Positions 14,056 to 34,500 of a stretch of DNA of 34,542 nt are shown in pieces (within the stretch, counting starts at the first letter, position 1; each line of letters begins with the position of its first letter). Origin of the DNA: a virus. The stretch spans positions 1 to 34,542 of the IMG/VR virus record IMGVR_UViG_3300037285_000062. One strand, 5' to 3'. The position numbers and the translations under genes are program-made. Under the pieces are notes generated by a model. That model was not told the DNA's origin, searched no databases, and was given only the letters and a program-made list of their open reading frames with translations.

Positions 14056-14952
14056 ATGGATATAAAAATACAAGCATTTAAGAAACGAAACCAAAAGCGT
14101 AACGCGCATTTGTACGAATCGTCATTACAATCGGGCATAGATTATATATTATGTCCTGTAAGTGACGAACGTCTTAGTATGATCAAGACATCGTACATTG
14201 AGCGAGTGTTACATATGAGCGTGGCAGAGTACGATAGACTGCACCCAGGAGTTCGGGGAGTTAGCAATGCACGAAAAGCAAACATCAAAAAAGGACTTAG
14301 TACAGTTGACTCTGCTACTGGGCTAACTGCTTACGAAACATCGCAAGTTGCTGCCCAACAAACGCTATCTAAGCTAGACGCCGATGGTATTAGTGGATAT
14401 AGTAAAAAAGGCCAAAAAACTAGAGCAACGCATATGAGCAATGTTGACGAGTTCGGCCGTAACGGTTATTCGCAATTAGCAACTCTTGCAATTACTAAAG
14501 GTAACGCAACAAAAGCAGCCAAGGGTCTTATATTAGATCCGGCGCAGCGTAATGAGTTTTATCGGTATAAGTCAGTTGTAACGTATGTCACTGAACAGCA
14601 TAGACTAGCAATAACCTCGGGTTATAAAACTGGACTTGCCGGAGTTGAAGGTGCACATCATATAGACCATATATTTTCTATTATGCAAGGATACAAAAAC
14701 CGTGTTAGTCCGTTGCTTATCGGAAGTATACATAACTTACAAATGCTTCCGTGGAAAGAAAACATATCAAAGCACAGTGCGTGCAGTATTACAATAGATT
14801 TGTTGTTAACTAACGCTAGTTATACTATTAATAAATCATTGTACGAGTTTGACGTATTTGCTAAGATGATTAATACCGACATGCAGCATGCGGCACCTGT
14901 TAGTGGAGCAAGGTTAGTAAAGGAATTCAATGAAACAAATATACGCACCTAA
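14056..14952 (+). CDS. Free-standing HNH-type homing endonuclease inside the split terminase
   Basis: The protein has 298 residues from the ATG at 14056. An upstream GTG at 14026 overlaps the previous stop and is less likely. Residues 31-65 resemble the CPxC..HL..HGMS..EY..P recognition element of phage HNH endonucleases, though the second Cys is replaced ('ILCPVSDERLSMIKTSYIERVLHMSVAEYDRLHP'). Residues 105-140 hold 'LDADGISGYSKKGQK' and 'VDEFGRNGYSQLA'. The HNH core is at ~198-240: 'EGAHHIDHIFS', then 'IHNLQMLPW', then 'KENISKH'. The enzyme should nick or cut an unsplit gp17 allele at the intein site and promote homing. Its end overlaps the start of the C-intein gene by 23 bases. Confidence 0.87.
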   Translation: MDIKIQAFKKRNQKRNAHLYESSLQSGIDYILCPVSDERLSMIKTSYIERVLHMSVAEYDRLHPGVRGVSNARKANIKKGLSTVDSATGLTAYETSQVAAQQTLSKLDADGISGYSKKGQKTRATHMSNVDEFGRNGYSQLATLAITKGNATKAAKGLILDPAQRNEFYRYKSVVTYVTEQHRLAITSGYKTGLAGVEGAHHIDHIFSIMQGYKNRVSPLLIGSIHNLQMLPWKENISKHSACSITIDLLLTNASYTINKSLYEFDVFAKMINTDMQHAAPVSGARLVKEFNETNIRT

Positions 14953-15265
14953 TACAGAATATGAAATATTAACTCCTAACGGGTGGGAAGAATTTGAAGG
15001 TATTTTCTTAAATGAAAATGCAAATAAAGAATCTTGTAAAATAACATTTACCGACGGTACTTTCGTTACTGCAACGTTAGAACACCGGTTTTTTATTAAC
15101 GGTGTAGAAACAAGAGTAAATGATATAATTGTAGGTGACAGGTTAGATTCGCACAATACTATTAAAACTGTGGCAGACCTAACATCTGTAGTTTTAGAAG
15201 ACACTTATGAAATATTTAATGCAGAAAATCATGTAATAATTGCAAATAATATTAACTCTCATCAA
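14930..15265 (+). other. C-intein (IntC), 112 codons, of an atypical split intein
   Basis: It begins 'MKQIYAPNTEYEILTPNGWEE', parallel to the start of AceL-TerL IntC ('ILSPNGF'). It has block B T-L-E-H (49-52), 'VNDIIVGDRL' as the conserved turn before the second half, block F 'YEIFNAENHVIIAN', and ends N-N-I-N-S-H-Q with Cys+1 (TGT at 15266). The C-terminal residue is Gln in place of the usual Asn. Confidence 0.88.
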
Positions 15266-16330
15266 TGTGACGAATTTGCATTTGTGCAACCAAACATTGC
15301 TGAAGAATTTTGGGCATCAATTTCGCCTACACTGGCAACTGGTGGACGCGCAATTATCACAAGCACACCAAACTCAGATGAAGATACATTTGCTACTATT
15401 TGGAAAGATGCCGAAAAGAGATTTGACGAATATGGCGTTGAACAAGAATTAGGCATCAATGGATTCCGTAGTTTTATCTCAGAGTGGCACGAGCATCCGG
15501 ATAGAGACGAAGAGTGGAAAAAAGGCGAGGTTGGCCGTATCGGCGAGGAACGTTTCCGCCGCGAGTATGGCTGCGAGTTCTTGGTATTTGACGAGACGCT
15601 AATACACTCACTTAAACTTGCTACATTAGAAGGAGAAGCGCCTTTATTGAATATGGGCCATACACGATGGTATAAAAGACCAAGTTCAAAATACAGCTAT
15701 GTGGTGTCACTTGATCCTGCTATGGGTACAGGCGGCAACAACGCAGCATTACAAATATATGAAATTCCTACGTATGAACAAGTTGGGGAATGGTGTCACA
15801 ACGAAACCGGAATCCCTGGCCAGGTTCGTGTATTAAAAGATATCTGCCAATATATTGCTGACGAAACCAAGAGCGGCGGCGACAACATATACTGGAGCGT
15901 TGAGAACAATGGATTAGGCGAAGCAGCACTGATTGTAATCAACGATTATGGCGAAGAAAATATACCAGGATTGTTTATCAGTGAGCCTATGAGAAAAGGT
16001 CATGTAAGAAAGTTTCGCAAAGGATTTAACACCACACACGGTGCGAAAATGACCATTTGCGCAAGATTAAAAACAATGATTGAAAACGATCAACTGTTGT
16101 TGCGAAGCAAACCGCTTATATCTGAATTAAAAAATTATGTCAAGTCGAATACCAGTTTTCAAGCAAAGCAAGGACACGGCGACGACTTAGTTAGTTCTAC
16201 ATTACTTGCATTGAGAATGATCACAGTGATCAAAGATTGGGACCCGTCGATATACAATACTTTCATACATCTTGAGCCAGACGAGGATTACGAGCAGCCA
16301 ATGCCCATCTTTGTCAGCAGTAGCTTTTGA
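14930..16330 (+). CDS. gp17: C-intein fused to terminase large subunit gp17, C-terminal fragment
   Basis: The protein has 466 residues. AAGGA at 14920-14924 precedes the ATG. Residues 1-112 are the C-intein. From Cys113 the sequence is terminase: C-D-E-F-A-F (Walker B acidic pair D114-E115), 'GGRAIITSTPNSDED' (coupling motif), then the RNase H-type nuclease with 'VVSLDPAMGTGGNNAAL' (D262), 'WSVENNGLGEAALIVI' (E324) and 'KQGHGDDLVSSTLLAL' (D418/D419). After splicing, 174 + 354 residues give a 528-residue gp17, close to marine relatives and shorter than T4 (610). The spliced junction L-L-Y-C-D-E-F-A-F restores a normal Walker B. Splicing is therefore essential for packaging unless an unsplit copy exists elsewhere. 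Confidence 0.95.
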   Translation: MKQIYAPNTEYEILTPNGWEEFEGIFLNENANKESCKITFTDGTFVTATLEHRFFINGVETRVNDIIVGDRLDSHNTIKTVADLTSVVLEDTYEIFNAENHVIIANNINSHQCDEFAFVQPNIAEEFWASISPTLATGGRAIITSTPNSDEDTFATIWKDAEKRFDEYGVEQELGINGFRSFISEWHEHPDRDEEWKKGEVGRIGEERFRREYGCEFLVFDETLIHSLKLATLEGEAPLLNMGHTRWYKRPSSKYSYVVSLDPAMGTGGNNAALQIYEIPTYEQVGEWCHNETGIPGQVRVLKDICQYIADETKSGGDNIYWSVENNGLGEAALIVINDYGEENIPGLFISEPMRKGHVRKFRKGFNTTHGAKMTICARLKTMIENDQLLLRSKPLISELKNYVKSNTSFQAKQGHGDDLVSSTLLALRMITVIKDWDPSIYNTFIHLEPDEDYEQPMPIFVSSSF

Positions 16331-17942: not shown

Positions 17943-18932
17943 ATGGCATCACTAGCAGAAATTAGAGCTAAACTAAAAGAACAAGAATCTCGCACAGGTG
18001 GAAATAAAACCGGGGGCGATAACGCAATTTACCCATTTTGGAACATGAACGAAGGTGACACTTCTACTATTAGATTCCTACCAGACGGTAACGAAGACAA
18101 CACATTTTTCTGGACAGAACGTTTGATGATCAAACTTCCCTTTGCAGGTATCAAAGGTGAGACTGATTCTCGCCCGGTACAAGTGCCAGTTCCGTGTATG
18201 GAAATGTATGGAGAAAGCTGCCCGATACTTGCAGAAGTACGCGGATGGTTTAAAGACCCTAGTTTGGAAGACATGGGCAGAAAGTATTGGAAAAAGAGAT
18301 CGTACATTTTCCAAGGCTTGGTAACAGATAATGCACTAAAGGAAGATAGCACTCCTGAGAACCCAGTTCGCAGATTTATTATCGGCCCGCAGATCTTTAA
18401 GATTATCAAAGCAGCACTTATGGATCCGGATATGGAAGAGCTACCAACAGATTATGCCGGTGGCGTGGACTTCCGTTTAACCAAGTCCAGCAAGGGTGGT
18501 TATGCAGACTATTCAACATCAAATTGGGCACGTAGAGATCGTCCTCTATCTGATGAGGAATTAGCTGCTGTTAACACTAACGGATTGCTAGACCTTGGAG
18601 ACTTCCTTCCTAAGAAGCCGTCGGACATCGAAGTTAAAGTACTAACTGAAATGTTCGAAGCAAGTGTTGATGGTGAACCATACGATCCAGATCGCTGGAG
18701 TCAATACTTCCGGCCAGCTGGAATGGCTCAGCGCACAGGCGATCCAAACAAGGCACCGGTAACACCAGTTGCAACACCGGCTGCAACGCCAGCAGCTACT
18801 AAGACTGAAGACGTTCCGTCTAAGTCTAACGCTGAAGTAGCACAAGAATCAGCACCTGCTCCTGCTCCGGCAGAAAACGCAGGCGGCGCGCAGGATATCC
18901 TTGCAATGATTCGCTCACGTCAAAACACATAA
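17943..18932 (+). CDS. gp32: Single-stranded DNA-binding protein gp32
   Basis: The protein has 329 residues and the best ribosome-binding site seen here (AGGAGG). The N-terminal basic stretch 'LAEIRAKLKEQESR' corresponds to the cooperative-binding LAST-type region. The core 'FWNMNEGDTSTIRFLPDGNEDNTFFWTERLMIKLPF' and 'CPILAEVRGWFKDP', then 'KKRSYIFQGLVTDNAL' and 'RRFIIGPQIFKIIKA' follow gp32 order. Of the zinc ligands known in T4 (His and three Cys), only a C-x7-C pair is obvious ('PCMEMYGESCPIL'). The last 60 residues are Ala-, Pro- and Thr-rich and end 'GGAQDILAMIRSRQ', as in marine relatives, unlike T4's acidic tail. It protects ssDNA and works with UvsX and UvsY downstream. Confidence 0.95.
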   Translation: MASLAEIRAKLKEQESRTGGNKTGGDNAIYPFWNMNEGDTSTIRFLPDGNEDNTFFWTERLMIKLPFAGIKGETDSRPVQVPVPCMEMYGESCPILAEVRGWFKDPSLEDMGRKYWKKRSYIFQGLVTDNALKEDSTPENPVRRFIIGPQIFKIIKAALMDPDMEELPTDYAGGVDFRLTKSSKGGYADYSTSNWARRDRPLSDEELAAVNTNGLLDLGDFLPKKPSDIEVKVLTEMFEASVDGEPYDPDRWSQYFRPAGMAQRTGDPNKAPVTPVATPAATPAATKTEDVPSKSNAEVAQESAPAPAPAENAGGAQDILAMIRSRQNT

Positions 18933-19000: not shown

Positions 19001-20107
19001 ATGGCTACTAAATCATTTGATCCCTCGAAATTTCGCAATAGTTTAACAAAATCTATTCAAGGAATGAGTTCGGGATTCCACGACCCAACAGATTGGGTCT
19101 CAACAGGAAACTTTGCACTTAACTATTTGATTAGCGGAGACTTTAGTAAAGGTATTCCGCTAGGCAAAGTAAGTGTTTTTGCAGGCGAGTCAGGCGCTGG
19201 CAAATCTTTCATCTGTTCTGGTACACTTGTACGTGAGGCACAGAAGCAAGGAATTTTCGTAGTTCTCGTTGACACTGAGAACGCACTAGACGAGAGCTGG
19301 TTAAAAGCTCTCGATGTAGACACCGACGACAGTAAAATGTTGAAACTCAACATGGCAATGATCGACGATGTTGCTAAAACAATTCACATGTTTATGAAAG
19401 ACTACAGAGACATGGCAGAGGAAGATCGACCAAAGGTACTCTTTGTTGTTGATTCGTTGGGCATGCTTATGTCGCCAACAGAACTTAATCAGTTTGAAGC
19501 CGGTGACATGAAAGGTGACTTTGGTCGTAAGGCCAAGCAACTTAAAGCACTTGTTACTAACTGTGTTAACATGTTTGGTTCTTACAACGTAGGTATGGTT
19601 GTTACCAACCACACTTATCAAAGTCAAGATATGTTTGACCCAGACGATAAGATTTCAGGCGGACAAGGTTTTATCTATGCATCATCGATTGTTGTTGCTA
19701 TGAAGAAGCTGAAGCTAAAGGAAGATGTAAACGGTGTTAAATCGGCAACTGTACATGGTATTCGAGCCAAGTGCAAGATAATGAAAACACGGTATTCGAA
19801 GCCGTTTGAAAGTGTCGAAGTGCGTATTCCTTACGCAACAGGCATGGACCCATACAGTGGGTTGTTTGACTTGTTTGACGGAAATGGTCTACTTGAAAAA
19901 AAGGGAAACCGGTACGAGTATGTCATGGAAGACGGAGAAGTGATTCTTGAATTCCGCAAAAGATGGACAGGCGATCTCCTTGATCGCGCAATGGCCGATT
20001 TTCTTGTTAAGAAAGAAAAAGCGTTAACAGCCAAATCTAACGGAGAAAGCGAACCCGAAGTTGAAGAAGTTGACACTGCTGATTATGTCGAGGAGCAAGA
20101 AGAATGA
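19001..20107 (+). CDS. uvsX: UvsX RecA-like recombinase
   Basis: The protein has 368 residues. AGGAGA precedes the ATG. Walker A G-E-S-G-A-G-K-S is at residues 62-69, Walker B 'KVLFVVDSLGML' at ~145-156 (D151), and the DNA-binding loop region contains 'LNQFEAGDMKGDFGRKAKQLKALV' and 'GMVVTNHTYQSQDMFDPDDKISGGQGF'. The C-terminus is very acidic (E-V-E-E-V-D-T-A-D-Y-V-E-E-Q-E-E). UvsX forms filaments on ssDNA coated by gp32 and, helped by UvsY, drives strand invasion for repair and recombination-dependent replication. Length is close to T4 UvsX (about 390). The stop overlaps the next start (ATGA). Confidence 0.97.
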   Translation: MATKSFDPSKFRNSLTKSIQGMSSGFHDPTDWVSTGNFALNYLISGDFSKGIPLGKVSVFAGESGAGKSFICSGTLVREAQKQGIFVVLVDTENALDESWLKALDVDTDDSKMLKLNMAMIDDVAKTIHMFMKDYRDMAEEDRPKVLFVVDSLGMLMSPTELNQFEAGDMKGDFGRKAKQLKALVTNCVNMFGSYNVGMVVTNHTYQSQDMFDPDDKISGGQGFIYASSIVVAMKKLKLKEDVNGVKSATVHGIRAKCKIMKTRYSKPFESVEVRIPYATGMDPYSGLFDLFDGNGLLEKKGNRYEYVMEDGEVILEFRKRWTGDLLDRAMADFLVKKEKALTAKSNGESEPEVEEVDTADYVEEQEE

Positions 20108-20330: not shown

Positions 20331-20786
20331 ATGGGATGGTACAGCAAAGTGTCTAACGACATTACTCAAATTCCAAGTGCTATACAATACTTTGAAAGCG
20401 AGCTGGCAACAGCTCGCTTTGAAACCCAAATTAAAGGTAGTATTGAAAAAGCAGCATCAATGATGCCAGGAATTGTAGAACAGAGATTCAATCAGCTTCA
20501 AGAAATCGAAGCCATACTTGAATACTTAAACATCGAGCTACGCAAGTTGCGCAGTTCATTTTTTAGAAAGTATTTAGAAAACTATCAACGTGCATTATCC
20601 AGTCGTGACTGCGAAAAGTATGTCGACGGCGAATCAGATGTGTGCGACTACGAACAATTAATCAATGAGTTTGCCCTACTTCGAAACAAATGGCTGGGTG
20701 TTCTAAAGGGCCTTGATCAAAAACAATGGCAAATGACAAACATTGTTAAACTAAGAGTAGCAGGAATGGATGATGCAGCAATATAG
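20331..20786 (+). CDS. uvsY: UvsY recombination mediator
   Basis: The protein has 151 residues, close to T4 UvsY (137). It is helical throughout. It carries 'YLENYQRALSSRDCEKYVDGESDVCDYEQLINEFALLRNKWLGVLKGLDQKQWQMTNIVKLRVAGMDDA', which has the UvsY pattern of a R-Y-x-x-x-x-L-S-x-R-D-A-x-K-Y-V-D-G segment followed by N-K-W-x-G-x-L-x-G-L-E-x-K-x-W-x-I-x-N-I-V-K-L-R. UvsY forms rings that load UvsX onto gp32-covered ssDNA. Its place two genes after uvsX supports this. Its end overlaps the following glycosyltransferase-like gene. Confidence 0.85.
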   Translation: MGWYSKVSNDITQIPSAIQYFESELATARFETQIKGSIEKAASMMPGIVEQRFNQLQEIEAILEYLNIELRKLRSSFFRKYLENYQRALSSRDCEKYVDGESDVCDYEQLINEFALLRNKWLGVLKGLDQKQWQMTNIVKLRVAGMDDAAI

Positions 20787-21328
20787 TATACTACTTGGAT
20801 GCGATCAGTTGTATTACAACAACTGGAGTATAGAGTTATTAAAGTCTATACACTATCATAATCCGTGGATCAAATTAAGATGCCACGTTGTTAATCCAGT
20901 CAATTTAATAAAACTCGACTTTGTTACATACACCACAGAAGACATTAATTTTGCAAACGATACTTCAAAGATATCTTACTTACAATCTGCTAGATTTATA
21001 GCTGCTAGTAAAATTTCAATGTCTGAAAGCTTTATTACACTTGATTGCGATACAATATGTACAAGAAGTTTTACACAGGATGATTTTGCAGAATTATTTG
21101 ACAATCCTTATGTTATGCAACATCATAAACAAGATCGATGGTTAGTGGGAATGGGGACGTGACCAAAATATACTTTCAGAGTTAGATAAGAAATACAATT
21201 TTGTGCCAGTTAACAAAAAATGGATAGTAAGTGGAAAGAATACACATAATTCAATTTTCCTAACATTAAAAGGTGATCAGAAAACTACTGATAAATATCT
21301 TAAAACATTTAATAGATTTAAGATATAA
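20770..21328 (+). pseudogene. Glycosyltransferase-like gene broken by a +1 frameshift
   Basis: The first frame (20770-21162, 130 residues) has a GT-A-like start 'YSILLGCDQLYYNNWSIELLKSIHYHNPW' and a D-x-D motif in 'FITLDCDTICTRSF'. It stops just after 'DRWLVGMG'. Past 21152 another frame continues without a stop to 21328: 'GRDQNILSELDKKYNFVPVNKKWIV' and 'NSIFLTLKGDQKTTDKYLKTFNRFKI'. Removing one G from GGGG at 21153-21156 joins the two into one ~186-residue protein. It could be a sequencing or assembly error in the G run, a real pseudogene or programmed frameshifting. The ATG at 20773 has AGGA at better spacing than 20770. The gene starts inside the uvsY end and opens the glycan island. Confidence 0.65.
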
Positions 21329-21330
21329 AA

Positions 21331-21954
21331 ATGAAAAAAGTTTATGAATATTGGCTGCCTGACACTGATACACATTTTGAGGGGCAGATTGCTAGATCTG
21401 TAAAAGACGGAGGTCCTGCTCAATATCAACATGATATTAGAACCGAAGCATATAAGTATGTAACTGATTTTAACCTATGTGTTGATGTTGGTGCAAATGT
21501 AGGACTATGGACAAAGCAGCTATCTCAGCATTTTAAGAAAGTAATTGCGTTTGAACCAATTGCAGAAGTATTTAAATGCTTAGAGAAAAATGTTGCAGAC
21601 TTGTGTGTAGACCTTAACTGTTTTGCATTAGGAAATGCTAACAGCACAGTTGATTTAGTCTATAACTGCACTAACACAGGTGCAACATACGTTGATAAGT
21701 CGTCATTAGGAATTGGTGCAATTACTGTTAAACGTCTTGACGATTTAAAATTACCCAAGTTTGGAATGATTAAGCTAGACTGTGAACAATACGAGATTGA
21801 AGTATTAAAAGGTGCAATAGAAACTATATTAATGTACAAGCCAATTATTGTATGCGAGCAACATGTAAAAGTAAAAGATGCTGGTAACTTTTTAAAAGAG
21901 TTAGGTGCAAAAGAAATTACTAGTATTCGAAAAGACTACATATTTGGTTGGTAA
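21331..21954 (+). CDS. FkbM-family SAM-dependent methyltransferase
   Basis: The protein has 207 residues. The SAM-binding glycine loop is V-D-V-G-A-N-V-G (residues 51-58), followed by 'VIAFEPIAEVFKCLEKNV' (acidic residue at the end of strand 2), 'FALGNANSTVDLVYN', and the FkbM signature 'GMIKLDCEQYEIEVLKGA'. The family O-methylates sugars and other small hydroxyl compounds. Next to glycosyltransferase-like genes and a nucleotidyltransferase, methyl capping of a glycan is likely. No strong Shine-Dalgarno precedes the ATG. A GATAAATA lies at 21290-21297 within the broken gene upstream. Confidence 0.85.
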   Translation: MKKVYEYWLPDTDTHFEGQIARSVKDGGPAQYQHDIRTEAYKYVTDFNLCVDVGANVGLWTKQLSQHFKKVIAFEPIAEVFKCLEKNVADLCVDLNCFALGNANSTVDLVYNCTNTGATYVDKSSLGIGAITVKRLDDLKLPKFGMIKLDCEQYEIEVLKGAIETILMYKPIIVCEQHVKVKDAGNFLKELGAKEITSIRKDYIFGW

Positions 21955-21969
21955 TGATTAAGTACTAGT

Positions 21970-22740
21970 ATGAATAGAACAGTAATTGTATCAGGCGGAT
22001 TTGATCCTATACACAGCGGACACATTGAGTATTTTAAAGCAGCCAAAGCACTTGGTAACAAGTTAGTAGTTGCAGTCAACAGTGACAAATGGTTGGTGAG
22101 GAAAAAAGGCAAGTCGTTTATGCCGTTTGCTGAACGCGCAAATATTATCAAACACTTAGACATGGTAGACGAGGTTATCGGATTTAATGATGACGACGAC
22201 TCTGCAAATTCTGCAATATTTTATATATTATCAACGCACGGAATTGGCACTCGACTTATATTCGCAAACGGCGGAGACAGAACAATAGAGTCAACAGCAG
22301 AATATAATATGTACAAATATTTCACAGGACTTGACTTTGCATGGGGAGTAGGAGGAGTTGCCAAACTAAATTCATCAAGTGTAATTCTTAAAGAATGGAG
22401 TCAGCCTACAACCGAACGTGCATGGGGAACATATACTGTATTAGACAAAAATAACAACTGGCAAGTTAAAGAATTATCTTTCCTCACAGGCATGGCATTG
22501 AGCGATCAGAGACATATTCATCGCAGTGAACACTGGCATGTTGTATCTGGTCAGATACAAATGAAGTTAGAGTTTAGCAACGGCCTTACTAAAAACAATC
22601 TATACACAGCAGGCGACAGCATTGACATTCCTAAAAATACATGGCACAAAGCAACTAACACTGGTTCATGCACTGCTACGGTAATAGAAGTTTGGATGGG
22701 CGATACATTAATGGAGAGCGATATTGAACGAAGAGACTAA
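21970..22740 (+). CDS. Cytidylyltransferase-like domain fused to a cupin (phosphomannose-isomerase type)
   Basis: The protein has 256 residues. Residues 1-140 are a HIGH-type nucleotidyltransferase: G-G-F-D-P-I-H-S-G-H (9-18), 'LVVAVNSDKWL', 'FMPFAERANIIKHLDMVDEVI' and 'NSSSVI' as the second nucleotide-binding motif. This is the family of glycerol-3-P cytidylyltransferase and the heptose enzyme HldE C-domain. Residues ~150-256 are a cupin like the C-terminal domain of mannose-1-P guanylyltransferase or mannose-6-P isomerase: 'AWGTYTVLDKNNNWQVKELSF', 'RHIHRSEHWHVVSGQ', 'AGDSIDIPKNTWHKATNTG' and 'IEVWMGD'. The two steps would activate and isomerise or bind a sugar phosphate. The C-terminus overlaps the next gene's TTG start by 17 bases. 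Confidence 0.85.
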   Translation: MNRTVIVSGGFDPIHSGHIEYFKAAKALGNKLVVAVNSDKWLVRKKGKSFMPFAERANIIKHLDMVDEVIGFNDDDDSANSAIFYILSTHGIGTRLIFANGGDRTIESTAEYNMYKYFTGLDFAWGVGGVAKLNSSSVILKEWSQPTTERAWGTYTVLDKNNNWQVKELSFLTGMALSDQRHIHRSEHWHVVSGQIQMKLEFSNGLTKNNLYTAGDSIDIPKNTWHKATNTGSCTATVIEVWMGDTLMESDIERRD

Positions 22741-23452
22741 GCCATTAAAAGTCTTTATAGGATGGGACAGCAGAGAAGACATTGCTTATCAAGTTTGCAA
22801 ACAAAGTATCCTTGATACAGCCAGTGTTCCGGTTGAGGTAATTCCGTTAAAACAAAAAGAGCTAAAAAAGAAGGGTTTGTATAACAGACCAATAGATGCT
22901 CTTGCATCAACAGAATTTACCTTTACTAGATTCCTGGTCCCGGCACTTTGTGAGTTTGACGGATGGGCGTTGTTTATTGATTGCGACATGATTTTTAAAA
23001 CAGATATTAAAGAACTATTCGATCAAGTTGATGACCAGTATGCTGTGATGTGTGCGCAGCACGACTATACTCCTAAGGAAAACACAAAGATGGACGGCCA
23101 ACAACAACACCAATATCCTCGAAAGAATTGGTCCAGTATGATACTGTTTAATTGTTCGCACCCTTCTAATAAAGTAGTTACACCAGAAGAAGTAAACAAC
23201 GAATCAAGAAGCGGAGCATTCTTTCATCGATTTAGCTGGTTACCTAACAACAGAATTGGCAAAATAAATCATACATGGAATTGGTTAGTAGGGTGGTATA
23301 AAGAACCTACTGATGGTAAACCCGACCTTATTCATTACACCGAAGGTGGACCGTGGTTTGACGCATATAAAGATTGCGAATATGCATCTGACTGGTATCG
23401 TACCCAGGCTAGCTATCATCAATCTATTATTGCCTCTCAAAAAAAAAGTTAA
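22724..23452 (+). CDS. Glycosyltransferase (GT-A fold, GT8-like)
   Basis: The protein has 242 residues. The start is a TTG at 22724 with GGAGAG seven or so bases upstream. No ATG occurs near the first strand 'LKVFIGWDSREDIAYQVCKQSIL', so the TTG is needed. The D-x-D motif is in 'WALFIDCDMIF' with flanking 'FTRFLVPALCEFDG', the pattern of GT8-type retaining glycosyltransferases that use UDP-sugars. 'WNWLVGWYKEP' and 'IHYTEGGPWFDAYKDCEYASDW' form the acceptor side and a His ligand position. It overlaps the fusion gene upstream. A run of nine A (23439-23447) just before the stop could promote slippage. The acceptor is unknown. Confidence 0.85.
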   Translation: MNEETKPLKVFIGWDSREDIAYQVCKQSILDTASVPVEVIPLKQKELKKKGLYNRPIDALASTEFTFTRFLVPALCEFDGWALFIDCDMIFKTDIKELFDQVDDQYAVMCAQHDYTPKENTKMDGQQQHQYPRKNWSSMILFNCSHPSNKVVTPEEVNNESRSGAFFHRFSWLPNNRIGKINHTWNWLVGWYKEPTDGKPDLIHYTEGGPWFDAYKDCEYASDWYRTQASYHQSIIASQKKS

Positions 23453-23574
23453 CTAAAGTAGATATACGCATTCAGGACCTGCCTTATTCAAATAATATAA
23501 AGAATATCCTAGAAAATCATTTACACAAAATGATCGATCCTTTGCAAAAATATTATTCAAATAAGGATTGTACT

Positions 23575-24393
23575 ATGGGAATGAAAATTGCAGCAATTGC
23601 ACCAGACGCCGAGGATTATAATATAGACAAGAAAGGATTGGTGTATGATCAGTACCTAGAAGGTTTTGTAACCGGCGGAGGTGGAAATATTAGCAACTTT
23701 GACGACGAACGTGATACGGACACACCTCTTGTAATTAGGGGACTAGGCACCACAAGTCAGCAGGCAATGCACAATTGCACAGACACTAATAGAACTTTTT
23801 ATTCAATTGATACTGGATATTTACAGCCGCCAGATACTAAAGTAAAGATGTACCATCGTATTACTAAGAATGCTCTTCAAAACTTAGGCCCAATCGTTGA
23901 TCGCGACTGTGACCGATTAGCAAGATTAAAATGGAAATATAGAAAACCCTCCAAGGGTAATAAAATTTTAGTATGCCCGCCTAGCGACAAAGTAATGAAT
24001 TTTTATAGTAAAAATTTAGATGACTGGATGGAAGAAACTATTGCAGAAATTAAAACATACACAAACAGACCAATTGAAATTAGACTAAAGCCAAATAGAC
24101 ACGACCGTGTAACATCTAATACAATCTGGCATGCACTAGAAGACACATATTGTTTAATAACCTTTAACAGTATTGCAGCAACAGAAGCATTACTTTACAG
24201 CGTTCCGGCAATTGCACTTGCGCCCAATGCAGCATCTGTTCTGTGTCATACATTGATCAGCGACATAAACAATGTACACGTTCCTTCTAGTGACGAAATA
24301 ACAGCATTTGCAGCACACTTATCGTATTGCCAATTTACGTTACGCGAAATGCAAAATGGCTATGCATGGAAGATTTTAAATGAAAGTAGTTAG
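23575..24393 (+). CDS. Capsule-synthesis or GT-B-like protein, paralogue 1
   Basis: The protein has 272 residues from the ATG at 23575, which has AAGGA at 23563-23567. An earlier ATG at 23530 lacks a ribosome-binding site. The C-terminal half has the order seen in GT-B or capsular polysaccharide synthesis-like proteins: a strand 'KILVCPPSDKV', then 'IAEIKTYTNRPIEIRLKPNR', then 'YCLITFNSIAATEALLYSVPAIALAP' (nucleotide-sugar-binding E-A-L-x-x-x-V-P element), then a closing helix. The same layout recurs in the genes at 24380 and 26169. It overlaps the next gene by 14 bases. A glycosyltransferase role for the phage or host surface is inferred. Confidence 0.6.
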   Translation: MGMKIAAIAPDAEDYNIDKKGLVYDQYLEGFVTGGGGNISNFDDERDTDTPLVIRGLGTTSQQAMHNCTDTNRTFYSIDTGYLQPPDTKVKMYHRITKNALQNLGPIVDRDCDRLARLKWKYRKPSKGNKILVCPPSDKVMNFYSKNLDDWMEETIAEIKTYTNRPIEIRLKPNRHDRVTSNTIWHALEDTYCLITFNSIAATEALLYSVPAIALAPNAASVLCHTLISDINNVHVPSSDEITAFAAHLSYCQFTLREMQNGYAWKILNESS

Positions 24394-25300
24394 TTATCTC
24401 AAATCCGTGCCGGCAAGAAATGCTAATATAGAAAAAGAGCTGTTGCTTAAAAAGTTTGTTATCGGTGTTAACAAAACCAATGACACCGGTGTATTGCACA
24501 CAAACCATACATTAGTTAACTGCGATGTTGCGGTAATACAAGGTTGGGTACATACAAACACTGCTACTTCTCATTTAAAACTTAGAAGTGATATAATAAA
24601 AACACAAGCGACTGCTAACAAGTATGTTGTAGCAGCAGATGCTAATTTATTTTTGTATAACAATAAAGAAAATCCACATGGATATTTGAGATACAGCTTC
24701 AACGACGTGTTTCCTACCACTGGAATTTATTGTGACACCATACCTGATCCAACGCGATGGCAACAAATTAGTATGGACACCGGTATACAATTAGAAGATT
24801 ATAAAACAAACGGAATGAATATTGTATTATGTTGTCAGCGCAACGGTGGCTGGAGTATGGGTACACAAACAGTAACCGACTGGATAATAAACACAGTAAC
24901 TACTATAAGAAAACACAGCAGTCGACGAATAATCATCCGCTCCCATCCAGGCGACAAGAGTGCAAATACATATCTGAGAGATGTAAAGATTACTGGTCTG
25001 CCTAATTGCAAAGTTACTATTGGTACACACCTAGACAGCGATCTACACAAAGCATGGGCAGTGGTTAATCATAACAGCAGTTCTATAGTCGGCCCTCTAA
25101 TTCAGGGGTATCATGGATTTATAACAGATCCAATAAAAAGCCAATGTAACGAAGTTGCCGAAACAGACTTTAGTAAGATTGAAAACCCTAGTCAGTTTGA
25201 TAGACAACAGTGGCTAGAACGTATTAGTATGTGTCACTGGAAATTTGAAGACTTAGAATCTGGGAAGTGCTGGAGTCACATGAGAAACTATTGCCAATAA
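24380..25300 (+). CDS. Capsule-synthesis or GT-B-like protein, paralogue 2
   Basis: The protein has 306 residues. The N-terminal domain has 'VNCDVAVIQGWVH'. The C-terminal domain has 'GMNIVLCCQRNGGWSMG', 'RRIIIRSHPGDKSANTYL', 'KAWAVVNHNSSSIVGPLIQGYHGFI' and 'SQCNEVAETDFSKIENPSQFDRQQWLERIS'. The R-S-H-P and N-H-N-S-S blocks correspond to the phosphate- and sugar-binding motifs of capsule-synthesis-type GT-B proteins. The closing block I-E-x-P-x-x-x-D-R-Q-Q-W-L is almost the same in the gene at 26169, so these two are the closest pair. Its end overlaps the convergent minus-strand glycosyltransferase by 13 bases. Confidence 0.6.
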   Translation: MKVVSYLKSVPARNANIEKELLLKKFVIGVNKTNDTGVLHTNHTLVNCDVAVIQGWVHTNTATSHLKLRSDIIKTQATANKYVVAADANLFLYNNKENPHGYLRYSFNDVFPTTGIYCDTIPDPTRWQQISMDTGIQLEDYKTNGMNIVLCCQRNGGWSMGTQTVTDWIINTVTTIRKHSSRRIIIRSHPGDKSANTYLRDVKITGLPNCKVTIGTHLDSDLHKAWAVVNHNSSSIVGPLIQGYHGFITDPIKSQCNEVAETDFSKIENPSQFDRQQWLERISMCHWKFEDLESGKCWSHMRNYCQ

Positions 25301-26130
25301 CCCTCGTTTCGTGCTACTGTAATGTCCTTTGGCAAGCTTTTGCCATTGTGCTTACGGTCTCCCTTCATGTGGTCAATCCATTGTCCTAGCTTGGTATTGA
25401 TAAGGGGATGGCCGCCACCACCTGTCTTTGCTGTTTTCATATACATCTCGGAACTATAATCTAATACATTAGGAGACGATTCTCTCATCCTGTTTACAAT
25501 GTCCCCAAACACAAAGCTGTCGTGCCATTCTTCGAGTAAAAAGATACCGTTCTCGGCGTCAGCATACACTCTCTCAAACTCTTTTAAGAATTCTTGACAA
25601 ACGTGATTGTTTAAATTCATTCCGTAAAAGCCGCATTCCGGCCACGTTTGCGAACCCTTGCCGCGTCCTACATACGTGATCCAGTCCTTGTCGGGCAAGC
25701 ATCCTTTAAACTGGTCAAAACTCCAATCACTGTGTACAAACGTGTCGGCATCCATCCACACACACCAGTCCTTACTGCGTCTACAAGCGTCGTACACGGC
25801 GTAGGTCTTGTTGGCAAACCGTATAGCATCCCACTTGAATGCTTTGTGGTGATCTCTGGGGCGTCTTTCTCGAATAGCTGCGGGTGGTATTCCGTTTGCT
25901 TTTGGATCGTTTCTCCACTGCAATTTAAATGCATTTAAATCAGCTAACGCCAGTCTTGCGTCGAATATTGTAATTTGTTTTTCATCAGGGTTAACAGGTT
26001 TGCAGTCTTCGGCATACACCAACAGCTTGACTTTCTTGTCGACTCGTTGAGAAAAGCTATCTAGAAAACGTTGTCCGTATAGATCCATTCCGGCTTTGTG
26101 AAATGTAGTAACCACAGTTATATCGTTCAT
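25288..26130 (-). CDS. Glycosyltransferase-like protein with D-x-D motif
   Basis: This 280-residue protein is the only minus-strand gene in the island. It starts 'MNDITVVTTFHKAGMDLYGQRFLDSF', a GT-A first strand. 'CVWMDADTFVHSDW' holds the metal-binding D127-x-D129, and 'KWDAIRFANKTYAVYDACRRSKDW' precedes it. 'ITYVGRGKGSQTWPECGFYGMNLNNH' resembles the donor-side loop of similar phage proteins. AAAGGA lies upstream on the minus strand. It is flanked by two paralogous plus-strand genes (24380 and 26169), so it seems to have been inserted into or inverted within that group. The sugar and acceptor are unknown. Confidence 0.7.
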   Translation of the reverse strand: MNDITVVTTFHKAGMDLYGQRFLDSFSQRVDKKVKLLVYAEDCKPVNPDEKQITIFDARLALADLNAFKLQWRNDPKANGIPPAAIRERRPRDHHKAFKWDAIRFANKTYAVYDACRRSKDWCVWMDADTFVHSDWSFDQFKGCLPDKDWITYVGRGKGSQTWPECGFYGMNLNNHVCQEFLKEFERVYADAENGIFLLEEWHDSFVFGDIVNRMRESSPNVLDYSSEMYMKTAKTGGGGHPLINTKLGQWIDHMKGDRKHNGKSLPKDITVARNEGYWQ

Positions 26131-26168
26131 GCGTAAATCCTTTAAATACAGTAGTAAGGTATTTAACT

Positions 26169-27014
26169 ATGAAATTCACTCTCTTCAAGGAATATGGCGC
26201 ACTCAACAGCAAACCTGTATTTGATGCGTTTGAAAAAAGTTTAATTGACGCCGGACATAGAGTGCTGGATGATGACATGCATGCTGACGTTGCTGTGATA
26301 TGGAGTGTTCTGTGGAATGGCAAGATGGTCGGTAACAAGCCAATATGGGATTATTTTAGAAAAACTAGCCGAAATGTAATAGTACTCGAGGTCGGCGGCC
26401 TACAACGAGGTACCACATGGAAAGTAGGTCTCAACGGAATAAACAATGATGCATACTTTGGGCCAGCTGGAAATGACAATAGTCGTGCCGCACAACTTGG
26501 ACTTATATTGGAACCATGGCGCAGCAACGGAGGACCTATTTACATTTGTTGCCAACACAATAAAAGCCTACAATGGGTTAATATGCCGACAATTGATGCA
26601 TACTTATCAGCATCAATTAATACTATACAACAACACACTGATAGAGAAATTATTATTCGACCTCATCCTCGTTGCCCAATATCGTACAATAATTCTGAAT
26701 ACAAAAATGTGAGTATACAACAGCCTCGGTTGATTAACGGGTCGTATGACGATTACGATTTACAGTACAGAGATGCATGGAGTGTTGTTAATTGGAGCAG
26801 TAACCCAGGGGTCGAAGCTGTTAGAAAAGGTGTACCGGCGTTTGTAGGACCTAGCAGTCTTGCATGTGATGTAGCCTCACAAGACTTGACCCAGATTGAA
26901 AAACCATTAATGCCCGACAGACAGCAATGGCTAAACGATCTTGCGCACACAGAGTATACAGTTGCAGAAATCGCACAAGGGATCCCGCTGAATAGATTGA
27001 CACACTGCTTTTAA
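26169..27014 (+). CDS. Capsule-synthesis or GT-B-like protein, paralogue 3
   Basis: The protein has 281 residues. AAGG upstream of the ATG is a modest ribosome-binding site. The N-terminal domain has 'DDMHADVAVIWSVLW'. The C-terminal domain has 'GPIYICCQHNKSLQW', 'REIIIRPHPRCP', 'RDAWSVVNWSSNPGVEAVRKGVPAFVGP' and 'QDLTQIEKPLMPDRQQWLNDLA'. These align in order with paralogue 2. The 39-base gap to the minus-strand gene should hold both promoters, but I see no convincing octamer there. A glycan-transfer role is inferred from family resemblance and neighbours. Confidence 0.6.
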   Translation: MKFTLFKEYGALNSKPVFDAFEKSLIDAGHRVLDDDMHADVAVIWSVLWNGKMVGNKPIWDYFRKTSRNVIVLEVGGLQRGTTWKVGLNGINNDAYFGPAGNDNSRAAQLGLILEPWRSNGGPIYICCQHNKSLQWVNMPTIDAYLSASINTIQQHTDREIIIRPHPRCPISYNNSEYKNVSIQQPRLINGSYDDYDLQYRDAWSVVNWSSNPGVEAVRKGVPAFVGPSSLACDVASQDLTQIEKPLMPDRQQWLNDLAHTEYTVAEIAQGIPLNRLTHCF

Positions 27015-28250: not shown

Positions 28251-29708
28251 ATGAGTTTATGTAAATTAATAATCGAAGACGAAGTAAATATAAAATTTGA
28301 AGGATTATCAGTAGACGTACGGAGACAACTTTCCAACGCATTAAAATTTGAAGTACCGTATGCAAAGCATATGCCGCAATTTAAATTAGGTCGCTGGGAC
28401 GGCAAGGTCGGCTTTTTTGGCATAGGTGGCGCAGGATATCTAAGCCATTTAGACGTATTATTGCCAATACTTGAAAAGAATAAGATAAACATTTCAGAGA
28501 TTGTTGACAAGAGAACAGCGATTGAATTAAATTTTCAAACCATTGATGCCAACTACTGGGGCACCACAGTTTGGCCAAAAGGTCATCCTGCCGAAGGCGA
28601 CCCTATTATACTGCGAGACTATCAAGTCGAAGCAATCAACAACTTTATACAAAATCCGCAAAGCTTGCAGCAAATTGCAACCGGTGCAGGCAAAACAATT
28701 ATCACAGCAACATTATCCAAGATGTGCGAAGTGTTTGGCAGGAGTTTGATTATTGTTCCTAACAAAAGTCTAGTTGAGCAAACAGAAGAAGATTATATCA
28801 ACTGTGGATTAGATGTAGGCGTTTACTTTGGAGACAGAAAAGAACTAGGTAAGACACACACCATCTGTACTTGGCAAAGTCTCAACATACTCAACAAGCG
28901 CAACAAAGAAGGACTTTCGGTTCTCAGCTTGGCAGAATTTTTAGAAGGTGTAATGACTGTTATCGTTGACGAAGTACATCAAGCCAAGGCAGATGTACTA
29001 AAGAATATTTTGACACAAAACTTAAAGAATGCGCCAATTCGCTGGGGTCTAACAGGAACTGTTCCTAAAGAAGCCTTTGAATTTCAAAGCATACTTGCAA
29101 GTCTTGGACCTGTTGTAGGCAACGTAACAGCAAAAGAACTACAGGACAAGGGCGTATTGTCAAACTGTCATGTTAATATATGTCAGTTGATGGATGTCAA
29201 AGCATTTACAAATTATCAAGAAGAACTCAAGTATCTTGTGTCGGACGAAGCACGCCTTGAATATCTTGGTAAGCTAATGATTAAGATAAAAAGTTCAGGA
29301 AATACATTAATTCTAGTTGATCGAATTGCAGCTGGACAAAAACTACAAGAACTAATTCCGGGTTCTATCTTTATTAACGGCGCGGTTAAAACAAAGAACA
29401 GAAAAGAAACTTACGACAAAGTACAAGATGCTACTGATATGGTAATTATTGCAACATATGGTGTTGCAGCAGTTGGTATTAATATTCCGCGAATCTTTAA
29501 TTTGGTGCTTTTCGAACCTGGCAAGAGTTTTGTTAGAGTTATCCAGTCAATCGGCAGGGGCGTAAGAAAAGCAAAGGACAAAGACTTTGTCCAAATATGG
29601 GACATTACCAGCACATGTAAGTTTGCCAAACGGCACCTCACTGCTCGTAAGAAATTTTACGCCGAAGCTGAATACCCATTTACAATAGAAAAAATAGATT
29701 GGAATTAA
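28251..29708 (+). CDS. uvsW: UvsW ATP-dependent helicase
   Basis: The protein has 485 residues. The UvsW N-terminal domain includes 'FKLGRWDGKVGFFGIGGAGYLSHLDVLLPILEK'. SF2 helicase motifs follow: 'LRDYQVEAINNF' (Q-type), A-T-G-A-G-K-T (143-149), 'LIIVPNKSLVEQ' (Ia), D-E-V-H (240-243), 'GLTGTV' (III), 'LILVDRIAAGQKLQELI' (IV), and 'RVIQSIGRGVRKAKDK' (VI). UvsW unwinds R-loops and branched DNA and switches T4 from origin- to recombination-dependent replication. The length matches T4 UvsW (about 500). Its last codons (I-D-W-N-stop) are duplicated 600 bases downstream, which marks the next gene as an insertion. No clear Shine-Dalgarno is seen. Confidence 0.96.
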   Translation: MSLCKLIIEDEVNIKFEGLSVDVRRQLSNALKFEVPYAKHMPQFKLGRWDGKVGFFGIGGAGYLSHLDVLLPILEKNKINISEIVDKRTAIELNFQTIDANYWGTTVWPKGHPAEGDPIILRDYQVEAINNFIQNPQSLQQIATGAGKTIITATLSKMCEVFGRSLIIVPNKSLVEQTEEDYINCGLDVGVYFGDRKELGKTHTICTWQSLNILNKRNKEGLSVLSLAEFLEGVMTVIVDEVHQAKADVLKNILTQNLKNAPIRWGLTGTVPKEAFEFQSILASLGPVVGNVTAKELQDKGVLSNCHVNICQLMDVKAFTNYQEELKYLVSDEARLEYLGKLMIKIKSSGNTLILVDRIAAGQKLQELIPGSIFINGAVKTKNRKETYDKVQDATDMVIIATYGVAAVGINIPRIFNLVLFEPGKSFVRVIQSIGRGVRKAKDKDFVQIWDITSTCKFAKRHLTARKKFYAEAEYPFTIEKIDWN

Positions 29709-29709
29709 A
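29694..29709 (+). repeat. 16-bp direct repeat, left copy (uvsW 3' end)
   Basis: ATAGATTGGAATTAAA encodes the UvsW end I-D-W-N-stop. An identical copy lies exactly 600 bases downstream (30294-30309), so the two bracket the stand-alone terminase-type ATPase gene. Confidence 0.85.
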
Positions 29710-29710
29710 A

Positions 29711-30286
29711 ATGAATACAACATTAGATAATGCACGCGAACTAGTAAAGTGTGCAAGCGACATTGAATATTTTGCAGAGAAATATATCAGAGTTGACCAT
29801 CCTATCAACGGAAGAATGACTCTTGTGCTCAGAGCTGAGCAGAAAGAGATGATTAAAAAGTACCAAGATAACAAATCATTTCTAGGAGCGTACAGACGCC
29901 AGTGCGGTAAATCCACTGTTGGATATGTTATAATGTTGCATAATATTTTGTTTGGCGATATTGCCAATCACTTGATATTAAGCCGAAACTCGCGCTCCAC
30001 AATAGAGAACGTTTTTCTTATGCATAATCACCTACCCGAGTTTCTAAGAAGTATAGCAGACATAACAGTGCGCAGCAACCATTCGATACACTTTTCTAAC
30101 GGCTCTACAATTGATGCCACAAAACGGCCAGACAATGACACTCCTTATTCTACAGTTTACGTTGATGAAGCCGGCTTTTTTGATGAAAAAACAACAGAGG
30201 CTGGAGAAAGCATTAAAAACAACGTAGGGATTACCAAATTCTTTTGTCTAACAAGCACTAGATTAAACGAATTGTTTGGCTATTAA
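29711..30286 (+). CDS. Stand-alone gp17-type terminase ATPase domain
   Basis: The protein has 191 residues from the ATG at 29711. A TTG at 29699 lies inside uvsW. The order of motifs follows the N-terminal ATPase of gp17: 'FAEKYIRVDHPINGRMTLVLRAEQKEMI', Walker A R-R-Q-C-G-K-S-T (62-69), 'ANHLILSRNSRSTIENVFLMHNHLPEFLRS', 'SNHSIHFSNGSTIDATKRP', Walker B 'TVYVDEAGFFDE' (D152-E153) and coupling motif 'FFCLTSTRLN'. It then stops, with no nuclease domain. All ATPase residues look intact, so it may be an active NTPase. It is not interrupted by an intein. It is bracketed by a 16-bp direct repeat. The role is unknown. Options include a packaging regulator, a recombination motor partner of UvsW, or a decaying duplicate. 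Confidence 0.75.
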   Translation: MNTTLDNARELVKCASDIEYFAEKYIRVDHPINGRMTLVLRAEQKEMIKKYQDNKSFLGAYRRQCGKSTVGYVIMLHNILFGDIANHLILSRNSRSTIENVFLMHNHLPEFLRSIADITVRSNHSIHFSNGSTIDATKRPDNDTPYSTVYVDEAGFFDEKTTEAGESIKNNVGITKFFCLTSTRLNELFGY

Positions 30287-32828: not shown

Positions 32829-33262
32829 AAGACCTACTAGCAGCAATTGACTTAAACGGAAAAGACGTTTGGGACGAGCTAGACAAAGACCAACGCAAGC
32901 AAGTGAGTTTCTGGTTGCTAAATCGTTACGTCAGTAGTATAAAAGCTAATAGAACACAAACTGAGCTTGCAGTCTTTAAAACCAACGAGTACTATAATAA
33001 AAACTGGGAAGTACTGGGTGCAAGACATCCTAAGCTACAATGGCAATTATTGTGTATGTCTGGTAACACAGGCAAGATCCAATACCATCAATGGCTTGGA
33101 CTCAAGCAACACAAGGGTGCTAACAACAAAGTGGTAAAACTATTATTAGAAATTTACCCTAACAAAAAGATAGATGAGGTTGAATTACTTGCTAGAATAT
33201 CTACCAAAGCAGAAATTAAGGAACTTGCTAGAGAACATGGATATGACAAAGTCGACATCTAA
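32804..33262 (+). CDS. Conserved helical protein, function unknown
   Basis: The protein has 152 residues: 'LPVKDLLAAIDLNGKDVWDELDKDQRKQVSFWLLNRYVSSI', 'HPKLQWQLLCMSGNTGKIQYHQWLGLKQHKGANNKVVKLLLEIYPNKKIDEVELLARISTKAEIKELAREHGYD'. I recall a very similar pattern from marine T4-like phages ('FSxWLxxRYxSS', 'HPxLQWxLL', 'H.WI', 'AxEHGYD') next to the zinc-finger gene. No function is known to me. The end overlaps the zinc-finger gene, so the two are probably translated together. Confidence 0.65.
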   Translation: MPAAKLPVKDLLAAIDLNGKDVWDELDKDQRKQVSFWLLNRYVSSIKANRTQTELAVFKTNEYYNKNWEVLGARHPKLQWQLLCMSGNTGKIQYHQWLGLKQHKGANNKVVKLLLEIYPNKKIDEVELLARISTKAEIKELAREHGYDKVDI

Positions 33263-33935
33263 GAAATTCGTTTGTGAATATTGCAAAAAGAGTTACTCAA
33301 AAGAAAGTACCCTTGTTGTGCATATGTGTGAACCAAAGCGAAGATGGCTCCAAAAAGACGAAAAGCGTGTGAAACTAGGTCTGTATGCATTCCGGCGATT
33401 CTATAAATTAAGCGCAGGAAATAAGACCGAAAAGTCGTATGAAGAGTTTATGAAGTCTACATTTTACAAAGCATTTGTAAAGTTTGGAAGTTTTGTAAAC
33501 AACGTCAAGCCGTTGTATCCAGAGAAGTATGTTGATTATGTTGTCACCAGTGGAGTAAAGCTTGACCATTGGTGCAGAGACGAAATGTACGAAGCTTACG
33601 CTGCTGATCTTATAATGAAAGAAGGTGTTGAAACAGCACTGGAACGGTCAGTTAACACTATGGTAGCATGGGCCGAACTCAACAAGTCTGTGTGGAATCA
33701 TTACTTTGCATATGTTTCGACAAACAGAGCAGTGTACGATATAAAAGATGGCAAGATATCGCCGTGGTTGTTGCTAAACTGTAATGCTGGAAAATCACTA
33801 TTGTCAAAATTCAACGATGAACAATTGGGATTAGTATTTCATATTTTAAACCCAAGTCATTGGGCTATGCGATTTAAGAGACAGCCCAGTGATGTAGCAC
33901 TTGTAAAGTCTATTGCAAAAGAAGGTAATCTATGA
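33243..33935 (+). CDS. Zinc-finger protein (C-x2-C-x12-H-x-C), conserved in marine T4-like phages
   Basis: The protein has 230 residues from the ATG at 33243. An ATG at 33237 is too close to the GAGA at 33231-33234. The N-terminal finger is 'CEYCKKSYSKESTLVVHMCEPKRR' with C11, C14, H27 and C29. The H-x-C spacing is shorter than in a classical C2H2 finger. The rest is helical and basic: 'KTEKSYEEFMKSTFYKAFVKFGSFVNNVKPLYPEKYVDYVV', 'LDHWCRDEMYEAYAADLI', 'ISPWLLLNCNAGKSLLSKFNDEQL' and 'LNPSHWAMRFKRQPSDVALVKSIAKE'. I recall this family in cyanophages, role unknown. It probably binds nucleic acid. It lies just before the DnaE-like gene. Confidence 0.65.
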   Translation: MTKSTSKKFVCEYCKKSYSKESTLVVHMCEPKRRWLQKDEKRVKLGLYAFRRFYKLSAGNKTEKSYEEFMKSTFYKAFVKFGSFVNNVKPLYPEKYVDYVVTSGVKLDHWCRDEMYEAYAADLIMKEGVETALERSVNTMVAWAELNKSVWNHYFAYVSTNRAVYDIKDGKISPWLLLNCNAGKSLLSKFNDEQLGLVFHILNPSHWAMRFKRQPSDVALVKSIAKEGNL

Positions 33936-33945
33936 AAGAATCTAA

Positions 33946-34500
33946 ATGGACATTGACATAGACTTTGCAAACAGAGATTTGATCTTGTCTAAAATACAGC
34001 ACCATGTTGCAAAACTTGAAAATGGCAAGAAGCATAATACTGGAATATACGCCACGCCGATTCCGCATAATCCAATTGACAATCTTTCTACAATTGATTA
34101 CAAGACTGCAGAAGACAGAAAGTATTTCAAGTTAGATTTCTTAAACGTAAGTATATACAAAGACGTTCGTAATAATGCCCACATGGATGAACTGGTCAGC
34201 AAGGAACCCATGTGGGATCTACTACAATATAAAGAGTTTAGTGATTTGGTATTTCATGTATCAGGGCATCATGCTATTTTACAAAAGCTCAAGCCCAACT
34301 CTCTTGAAAAACTAGCTGCCTGTCTTGCAATTATTCGACCTGCAAAAAGGTACTTATTAGACAAAGATTGGTATGACATATATCAAGAAGTCTGGACCAA
34401 GCCGACTACTGATCAGTATTTCTTCAAAAAAGCCCACGCATTCTCATACGCAATGGCTGTTGTAGTACATATAAATTTGCTTTGCGAAACGCCTACTTAA
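33946..34500 (+). CDS. Miniature DnaE-like (C-family DNA polymerase) protein
   Basis: The protein has 184 residues. A stop codon directly before the ATG fixes the start. Motifs of bacterial Pol III alpha appear in order but compressed: D-I-D-I-D-F (2-7, like P-D-F-D-V-D-F), 'KHNTGIYATPIP' (like K-H-A-A-G-V), 'YFKLDFLNVSIY' (61-71, like V-K-F-D-F-L-G-L), 'EPMWDLL', 'VFHVSGHHAILQKLKPNSLEKLAACLAIIRPA' (like V-F-Q-L-E-S-x-G-M-x-x-L...L-x-P...A-L-x-R-P-G) and 'YFFKKAHAFSYAMAVV' (like Y-G-F-N-K-S-H-S-A-A-Y-A). D4, D6 and D64 would match the catalytic Asp set. PHP, most of the fingers, OB and beta-binding regions are missing (E. coli DnaE has 1160 residues). It may be a derived polymerase-fold protein with another role. 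Confidence 0.65.
   Translation: MDIDIDFANRDLILSKIQHHVAKLENGKKHNTGIYATPIPHNPIDNLSTIDYKTAEDRKYFKLDFLNVSIYKDVRNNAHMDELVSKEPMWDLLQYKEFSDLVFHVSGHHAILQKLKPNSLEKLAACLAIIRPAKRYLLDKDWYDIYQEVWTKPTTDQYFFKKAHAFSYAMAVVVHINLLCETPT

Follow-up and report, generated by a model that had tools for sequence, protein, structure and literature searches.

The stretch of viral DNA analysed here, hereafter the window, comprises the 34,542 nucleotides of IMG/VR record IMGVR_UViG_3300037285_000062 and ends 42 bases past an open reading frame whose 184-amino acid product begins with MDIDIDF (Table 1). A first-pass annotation of this DNA had described the product as a 184-residue protein carrying DnaE motifs in DnaE order, and both the reading frame and the motifs are confirmed beyond chance. 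DIDIDF is followed by KKHNTG (GKHAGG in E. coli), by KLDFLN (KFDFLG) and then by the fingers motifs; the fourth motif block reads FHVSGH..LKPNSLEKLAACLAIIRP and the fifth YFFKKAHAFSYA, for which the E. coli counterpart is YGFNKSHSAAYA.

The gene belongs to a cluster that also encodes a UvsW-like helicase. The product of the gene directly upstream matches phrog_11058 (E 1.8e-62) from residue 23 onward and its true start is probably the ATG at 33240, while its zf-C2H2 match (E 0.0007) falls below the Pfam cut-off. Of 88 loci, 86 carry a phrog_11058 gene on the upstream side of the mini-polymerase; its product is likely a functional neighbour and only a putative partner of the latter. A convergent gene of unknown function (phrog_11637, ~122 aa) is likewise present in 86 of the 88 loci; in the examples examined, such as L003 (6548-6913, minus strand), it directly adjoins the mini-polymerase gene at the latter's 3' end. 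Among several named phages, the surrounding genes include uvsX, uvsY, a DnaQ-like exonuclease, uvsW, primase gp61 and helicase gp41, whereas the neighbourhood in XacN1 differs.

Several other features of the window were recorded in passing. The large terminase gene comes in two parts (13388-14029 and 14930-16330) separated by a 308-aa open reading frame, which appears by eye to be HNH-type endonuclease-like and has no Pfam match; the ends (CLDGDTTTVRV... and ...HVIIANNINSHQC) resemble a split intein, again by eye only. A second, truncated terminase-large-subunit-like open reading frame (29699-30286, 195 aa, phrog_5989) adjoins uvsW, and the uvsX-uvsW interval (20770-27014) includes genes for a glycosyltransferase (Glyco_transf_8) and for a sugar-nucleotide enzyme with a cytidylyltransferase and a mannose-6-phosphate isomerase domain.

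Table 1. Genes of the window and motifs of the 184-residue protein (residue numbers are those of the protein, with E. coli DnaE equivalents).
Feature	Position	Strand	Evidence or remarks
gp32-like single-strand binding protein	17943-18932	+	phrog_1192, E 4e-62
UvsX recombinase	19001-20107	+	phrog_97, E 2e-69
UvsW-like helicase	28251..29708	+	phrog_16, E 1e-76; same gene cluster
Zinc-finger gene, one C2H2-like motif plus unknown region, phrog_11058	33174..33935	+	directly upstream of the mini-polymerase
C-terminal half of a predicted split minimal DnaE-like polymerase core (C family)	33946..34500	+	phrog_11778 match, profile comparisons, dN/dS
MDIDIDF	33946..33966	+	D2, D4 = D401, D403 (metal ligands); D6 = D405; invariant in 60/60 distinct homologs covering the motif
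KKHNTG	34027..34044	+	H30, G33 = H511, G514; invariant in 61/61
KLDFL	34129..34143	+	K62, D64 = K553, D555 (third metal ligand); invariant in 61/61; hhalign columns
IIRPAKR	34330..34350	+	R131, P132 = R639, P640 of the fingers; K134 invariant, specific to the C-half family
FKKAHAFSYA	34423..34452	+	H164 = H760 (FNKSHSAAYA); H and Y invariant in 61/61

Homology to C-family polymerases and conservation of the catalytic residues

The 184-aa protein matches phrog_11778 ("DNA polymerase") over residues 1-182 (E 5.1e-57), a full-length match to a family with RaK2 gp411 and Atu_ph07 gp074 among its members. DnaE-type phrog_405 is matched weakly but at the right place (E 0.0013), Pfam and NCBIfam return weak finger-domain or DnaE matches that are all below cut-off, and the single protein finds no match in the PDB by phmmer. 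A family profile built from 39 relatives does reach solved DnaE structures in the PDB, M. tuberculosis DnaE1 among them (E 0.0057), and several motif blocks are collinear. Comparison with DnaE at the profile level, proposed as a check by the first-pass annotation, bears out the assignment: hhalign aligns the C-half family to a six-sequence DnaE alignment with a probability of 94% (E 1.3e-7), pairing KKHNTG with GKHAGG, KLDFLN with KFDFLG and AIIRP with ALFRP. Based upon the phrog_11778 match, the collinear matches to DnaE in the PDB and the hhalign probability, homology of the protein to C-family DnaE is real.

Homologs of this C-half occur in at least 63 phage records and 238 IMG/VR stretches. 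The protein of the window is at most 49% identical to the phrog_11778 members from cultured phages, and its start and end are the same as in its relatives. Compared to relatives of 85-88% amino acid identity, the gene has a dN/dS of ~0.05, a rough figure as dS exceeds 1, and it is under strong purifying selection.

Like E. coli DnaE, the protein presents an ordered series of motifs with equivalents of D401/D403/D405/D555, H511, K553, R639 and H760. The numbering of its first motif is based upon the E. coli sequence PDFDVDF, which begins at residue 400. The metal ligands D401, D403 and D555 of E. coli never vary within the C family, whereas D405 is conserved in the DnaE groups and replaced by Asn in PolC (PMC3919608). 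By alignment, the three catalytic Asp residues of the C family are present as D2, D4 and D64, while D6 is the DnaE-type Asp rather than the PolC-type Asn and is likewise Asp in 60/60 homologs. The catalytic Asp residues had previously been listed as D4, D6 and D64; three are indeed kept, and D4 and D64 were correctly named, but D6 corresponds to D405 and the ligand missing from that list is D2. Residues D2, D4, D6, D64, H30, G33, K62, R131-P132, K134 and H164 are invariant across 61 distinct homologs, and this extends to such distant members as those of RaK2, SCTP-2, XacN1 and Stenotrophomonas phage CM1. The profile match of Slicko01 begins past the first motif; nevertheless, its open reading frame reads FDVDIDV. 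The counterparts of H30 and G33 are both invariant in the DnaE comparison set as well.

Regions missing from the C-half

Only ~23 residues lie between DIDIDF and KKHNTG, against ~105 in E. coli, a spacing that leaves the C-half with no thumb. Similarly, IIRP and FKKAH are ~31 residues apart where E. coli has ~120, so by the same reasoning the distal fingers are gone as well, including the region of R709 and E718, two residues that do not vary in the six-sequence DnaE set. It would be surprising for an ordinary polymerase to lack both the thumb and the distal fingers. Furthermore, the protein opens at the catalytic strand, and thus the preceding palm segment with its GRGS loop is absent from the chain. 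No Pfam match to the PHP or (HhH)2 domain was found in the 184-aa protein or in the N-half of a relative, and 184 aa leave no room for these two domains, which are nearly universal in bacterial C-family members (PMC3919608). Unlike DnaE, the split enzyme lacks the PHP, thumb, distal fingers, clamp-binding and OB parts, and its palm is distributed over two proteins. The earlier statement that the rest of Pol III alpha is absent therefore holds for the 184-aa gene, but not for its relatives as a whole, in which the N-terminal half of the palm is a separate gene.

The predicted N-terminal partner

A PF07733 search of the full genomes of eight phages (Phosso, Atu_ph07, RaK2, PA5oct, PBECO4, SCTP-2, Vibrio 2.275.O and XacN1), all picked for carrying the C-half, identified one N-terminal piece in each, above cut-off and covering only positions ~16-98 of the profile. 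This N-half is ~170-180 aa long, carries G.GRGS (the GRGSS motif) and terminates in EFLN, EFLK or a similar sequence. It corresponds to phrog_11127 (E 2e-43), matches PF07733 above cut-off (E 1.3e-10) and aligns to DnaE by hhalign with a probability of 96% (E 1e-8), while its first ~90 residues match nothing except its own PHROG. Within the GRGS loop, the R, the G and the first S do not vary among 108 distinct N-half sequences, a set collected with the same profile. The N-half terminus aligns with E. coli residues 388-393 and the C-half starts at E. coli 399/400, leaving a gap of only 5-6 residues; as aligned, the ends of the two halves are exactly complementary. The 184-aa protein had been framed as a self-standing mini-polymerase, a framing that finds no support, since the chain lacks the GRGS palm segment and this segment is encoded in its relatives by a second, distant gene with a complementary end.

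Neither motif nor PF07733 searches revealed an N-half in the 34.5-kb window, which is a fragment. Among viral contigs, the Phosso N-half as a query yielded no matches, whereas a closer N-half did match. We infer that the partner is present in the window's own phage; both this N-half and a B-family polymerase, if present, would be encoded beyond the fragment's ends.

Co-occurrence and distribution

Beside the C-half, all eight full phage genomes carry the N-half and a B-family polymerase, and every complete relative checked encodes both halves together with the B-family enzyme. The first-pass annotation was thus correct in ascribing a B-family polymerase to T4-like phages. A B-family polymerase is likewise found in 9/11 further records, the two without it being fragments of 39 and 88 kb. 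Among the matches listed, 57 records are common to the 60 phage records with a C-half and the 60 with an N-half, a count that cannot be read as a probability given that the records are kin, even though several distant lineages are spanned. Slicko01 and Slickus01, both Alishewanella phages, and a record of 109 kb, which is probably partial, make up the three C-only cases among these listed matches. The N-half of Slicko01 was found by profile search, and Slickus01 infects the same host and is nearly equal in size. Three N-only records also occur among the matches listed, and their C-halves may exist beyond the C-half matches listed.

Both halves are encoded by CM1, Slicko01, four IMG/VR contigs (187, 236, 275 and 382 kb) and one 335-kb contig of a metagenome-assembled genome (MAG), whereas five contigs of 111-200 kb, which may be fragments, have the N-half but no C-half. 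The distance between the two genes ranges from ~11 kb in Slicko01 to >200 kb. Slicko01 is circular and only 141 kb in size, and with it the split system extends outside of the jumbo phages. A search of bacterial and archaeal genomes yielded only four matches, all in MAG contigs (L152-L155). The MAGs in question are labelled as an archaeon, Elusimicrobia and Neomarinimicrobiota. Since the 335-kb contig among them holds both halves, these matches are probably phage contigs that were misbinned.

Single-chain phage DnaE proteins (phrog_405, phrog_11165) share the same C-family catalytic motifs, but unlike the split enzyme they contain GRGS and all of the motifs in one chain. Such a protein, a PHP-less DnaE of 551 aa, is encoded near the C-half gene in related contigs. 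Three contigs (L101, L102 and L103, the contigs of L023, L072 and L012, respectively) encode the C-half as well as a single-chain PHP-less C-family polymerase of ~550 aa (PF07733 E 1e-42, PF17657 E 5e-16), one copy being truncated where its contig ends; the polymerase gene is directly downstream of a DnaB-like helicase gene in L101 and L102. We considered whether these ~550-aa matches to the N-half profile might be fused halves, but this was rejected, as they are separate single-chain DnaE proteins. The phages of L101-L103 may accordingly have three DNA polymerases. Microbacterium phage Anakin (L239, 869-4220) has adjacent genes of 345 and 767 aa, both annotated as DnaE-like Pol III alpha, which is another and different split of a phage DnaE.

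Discussion

The current analysis places the 184-aa protein within a group of phage enzymes that has been recognized since 2021, and the gene of the window adds a new sequence to it. Iyer et al. 2021 described a phage-specific minimal Pol III alpha in two proteins among the group 2.2 (T4-like) jumbo phages, with an N-terminal NTP-binding and a C-terminal Mg2+/template-binding part encoded by distant genes, proposed either cooperation with the B-family enzyme or a role in repair, and suggested that it resembles ancestral Pol III (PMC7824862). The presence of a mini C-family relative in T4-like phages had been deemed unexpected, but the split minimal Pol III was already in the literature at that point. 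A 172-aa truncated Pol III alpha, CBB_328 of phage CBB, had been noted even earlier (PMC5259590) and its length fits the N-half found in the CBB record, while papers including that on Atu_ph07 annotate similar subunits. No biochemical or other experimental test of the split enzyme was found in the literature searched, nor anything usable there on the role of R709 or on transcription timing. The features of the published system are readily recognized here: the window encodes a stand-alone C-terminal Mg2+/template-binding piece belonging to phrog_11778, and its relatives have two distant genes with a B-family polymerase in the same genomes. The present analysis goes beyond the published description (PMC7824862) in several respects: the sequence is new and comes from an uncultured phage, the two halves are exactly complementary at the split, the thumb and the R709 region are lost, a zinc-finger gene is conserved upstream, and both halves occur in a phage of 141 kb, which is not a jumbo phage. 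Also added here are the invariance of the catalytic residues in ~60 distinct sequences and the conserved replication-gene neighbourhood.

Based upon these features, we consider it probable (roughly 0.7) that the 184-aa protein represents the C-terminal half of a minimal Pol III alpha core encoded in two pieces, and that it pairs with the N-half as a low-processivity accessory polymerase beside the B-family replicase. In this arrangement, the C-half would contribute the catalytic residues D2, D4 and D64, the palm H/G and K motifs and shortened fingers, whereas the second protein of ~170 aa, encoded far off, would contribute the part of the palm that comes before, GRGSS loop included. Together, the chains would build a single nucleotidyltransferase active site of the Pol beta type, at which nucleotides are added to a DNA end. 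The assembled pair would serve in gap filling, in recombination-dependent repair or in the hand-off of primers or strands. Among the four roles suggested previously, a primer-extending accessory still provides the best description.

With the thumb and distal fingers lost, a non-templated or end-processing activity is also conceivable. A C-family nucleotidyltransferase of two chains, lacking the thumb and the R709 region, could perform something other than ordinary copying, such as the making of primers or the processing of ends during recombination-dependent replication. We regard this as unlikely, although it would show how small a C-family active site can get. In a stricter version, which includes the template-independent nucleotidyltransferase suggested previously and seems rather improbable, the active two-chain enzyme would not copy a template at all, but would use its C-family site for untemplated addition, primer making or capping, or end modification. 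Such an activity would be consistent with metal ligands and a GRGS loop that are kept in all relatives despite the loss of the thumb and R709/E718 region, and with a B-family replicase being present for bulk synthesis. However, the IRP and FKKAHA.SYA motifs of the fingers are among the most conserved parts of the protein, which fits template-directed synthesis, and the related single-chain DnaE proteins that are widespread in phages are presumably template-copying.

It could also be envisioned that the protein is a non-catalytic decoy or scaffold, whose likeness to a polymerase allows it to bind host or phage replisome parts, as it is small, lacks the GRGS loop in its own chain and is missing several regions of DnaE. 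A decoy would have little need to retain such residues, yet the three metal ligands are invariant in ~60 distinct sequences, dN/dS is ~0.05 and the missing loop is intact in the partner, which together make this explanation very doubtful. The earlier suggestions of a decoy and of a virion protein were both set aside, given the invariance of the catalytic residues and the location of the gene within the replication and recombination cluster. Least credible of all is the idea that a full-length host DnaE was captured and that the gene is what is left of it, in decay: the short length and lack of domains would fit, but this is rejected by the dN/dS of ~0.05, and the start and end of the gene are conserved in dozens of phages, as are the partner and neighbourhood.

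Provided that the two halves reconstitute an enzyme, it would represent a very small C-family core, with ~355 aa in two chains vs 1160 aa for E. coli DnaE, and would offer a simple system for asking which parts of Pol III alpha are needed. The idea of a resemblance to ancestral Pol III (Iyer et al. 2021) becomes testable only after its activity is known. Moreover, if the halves do reconstitute an enzyme, these phages would run two unrelated DNA polymerase folds simultaneously.
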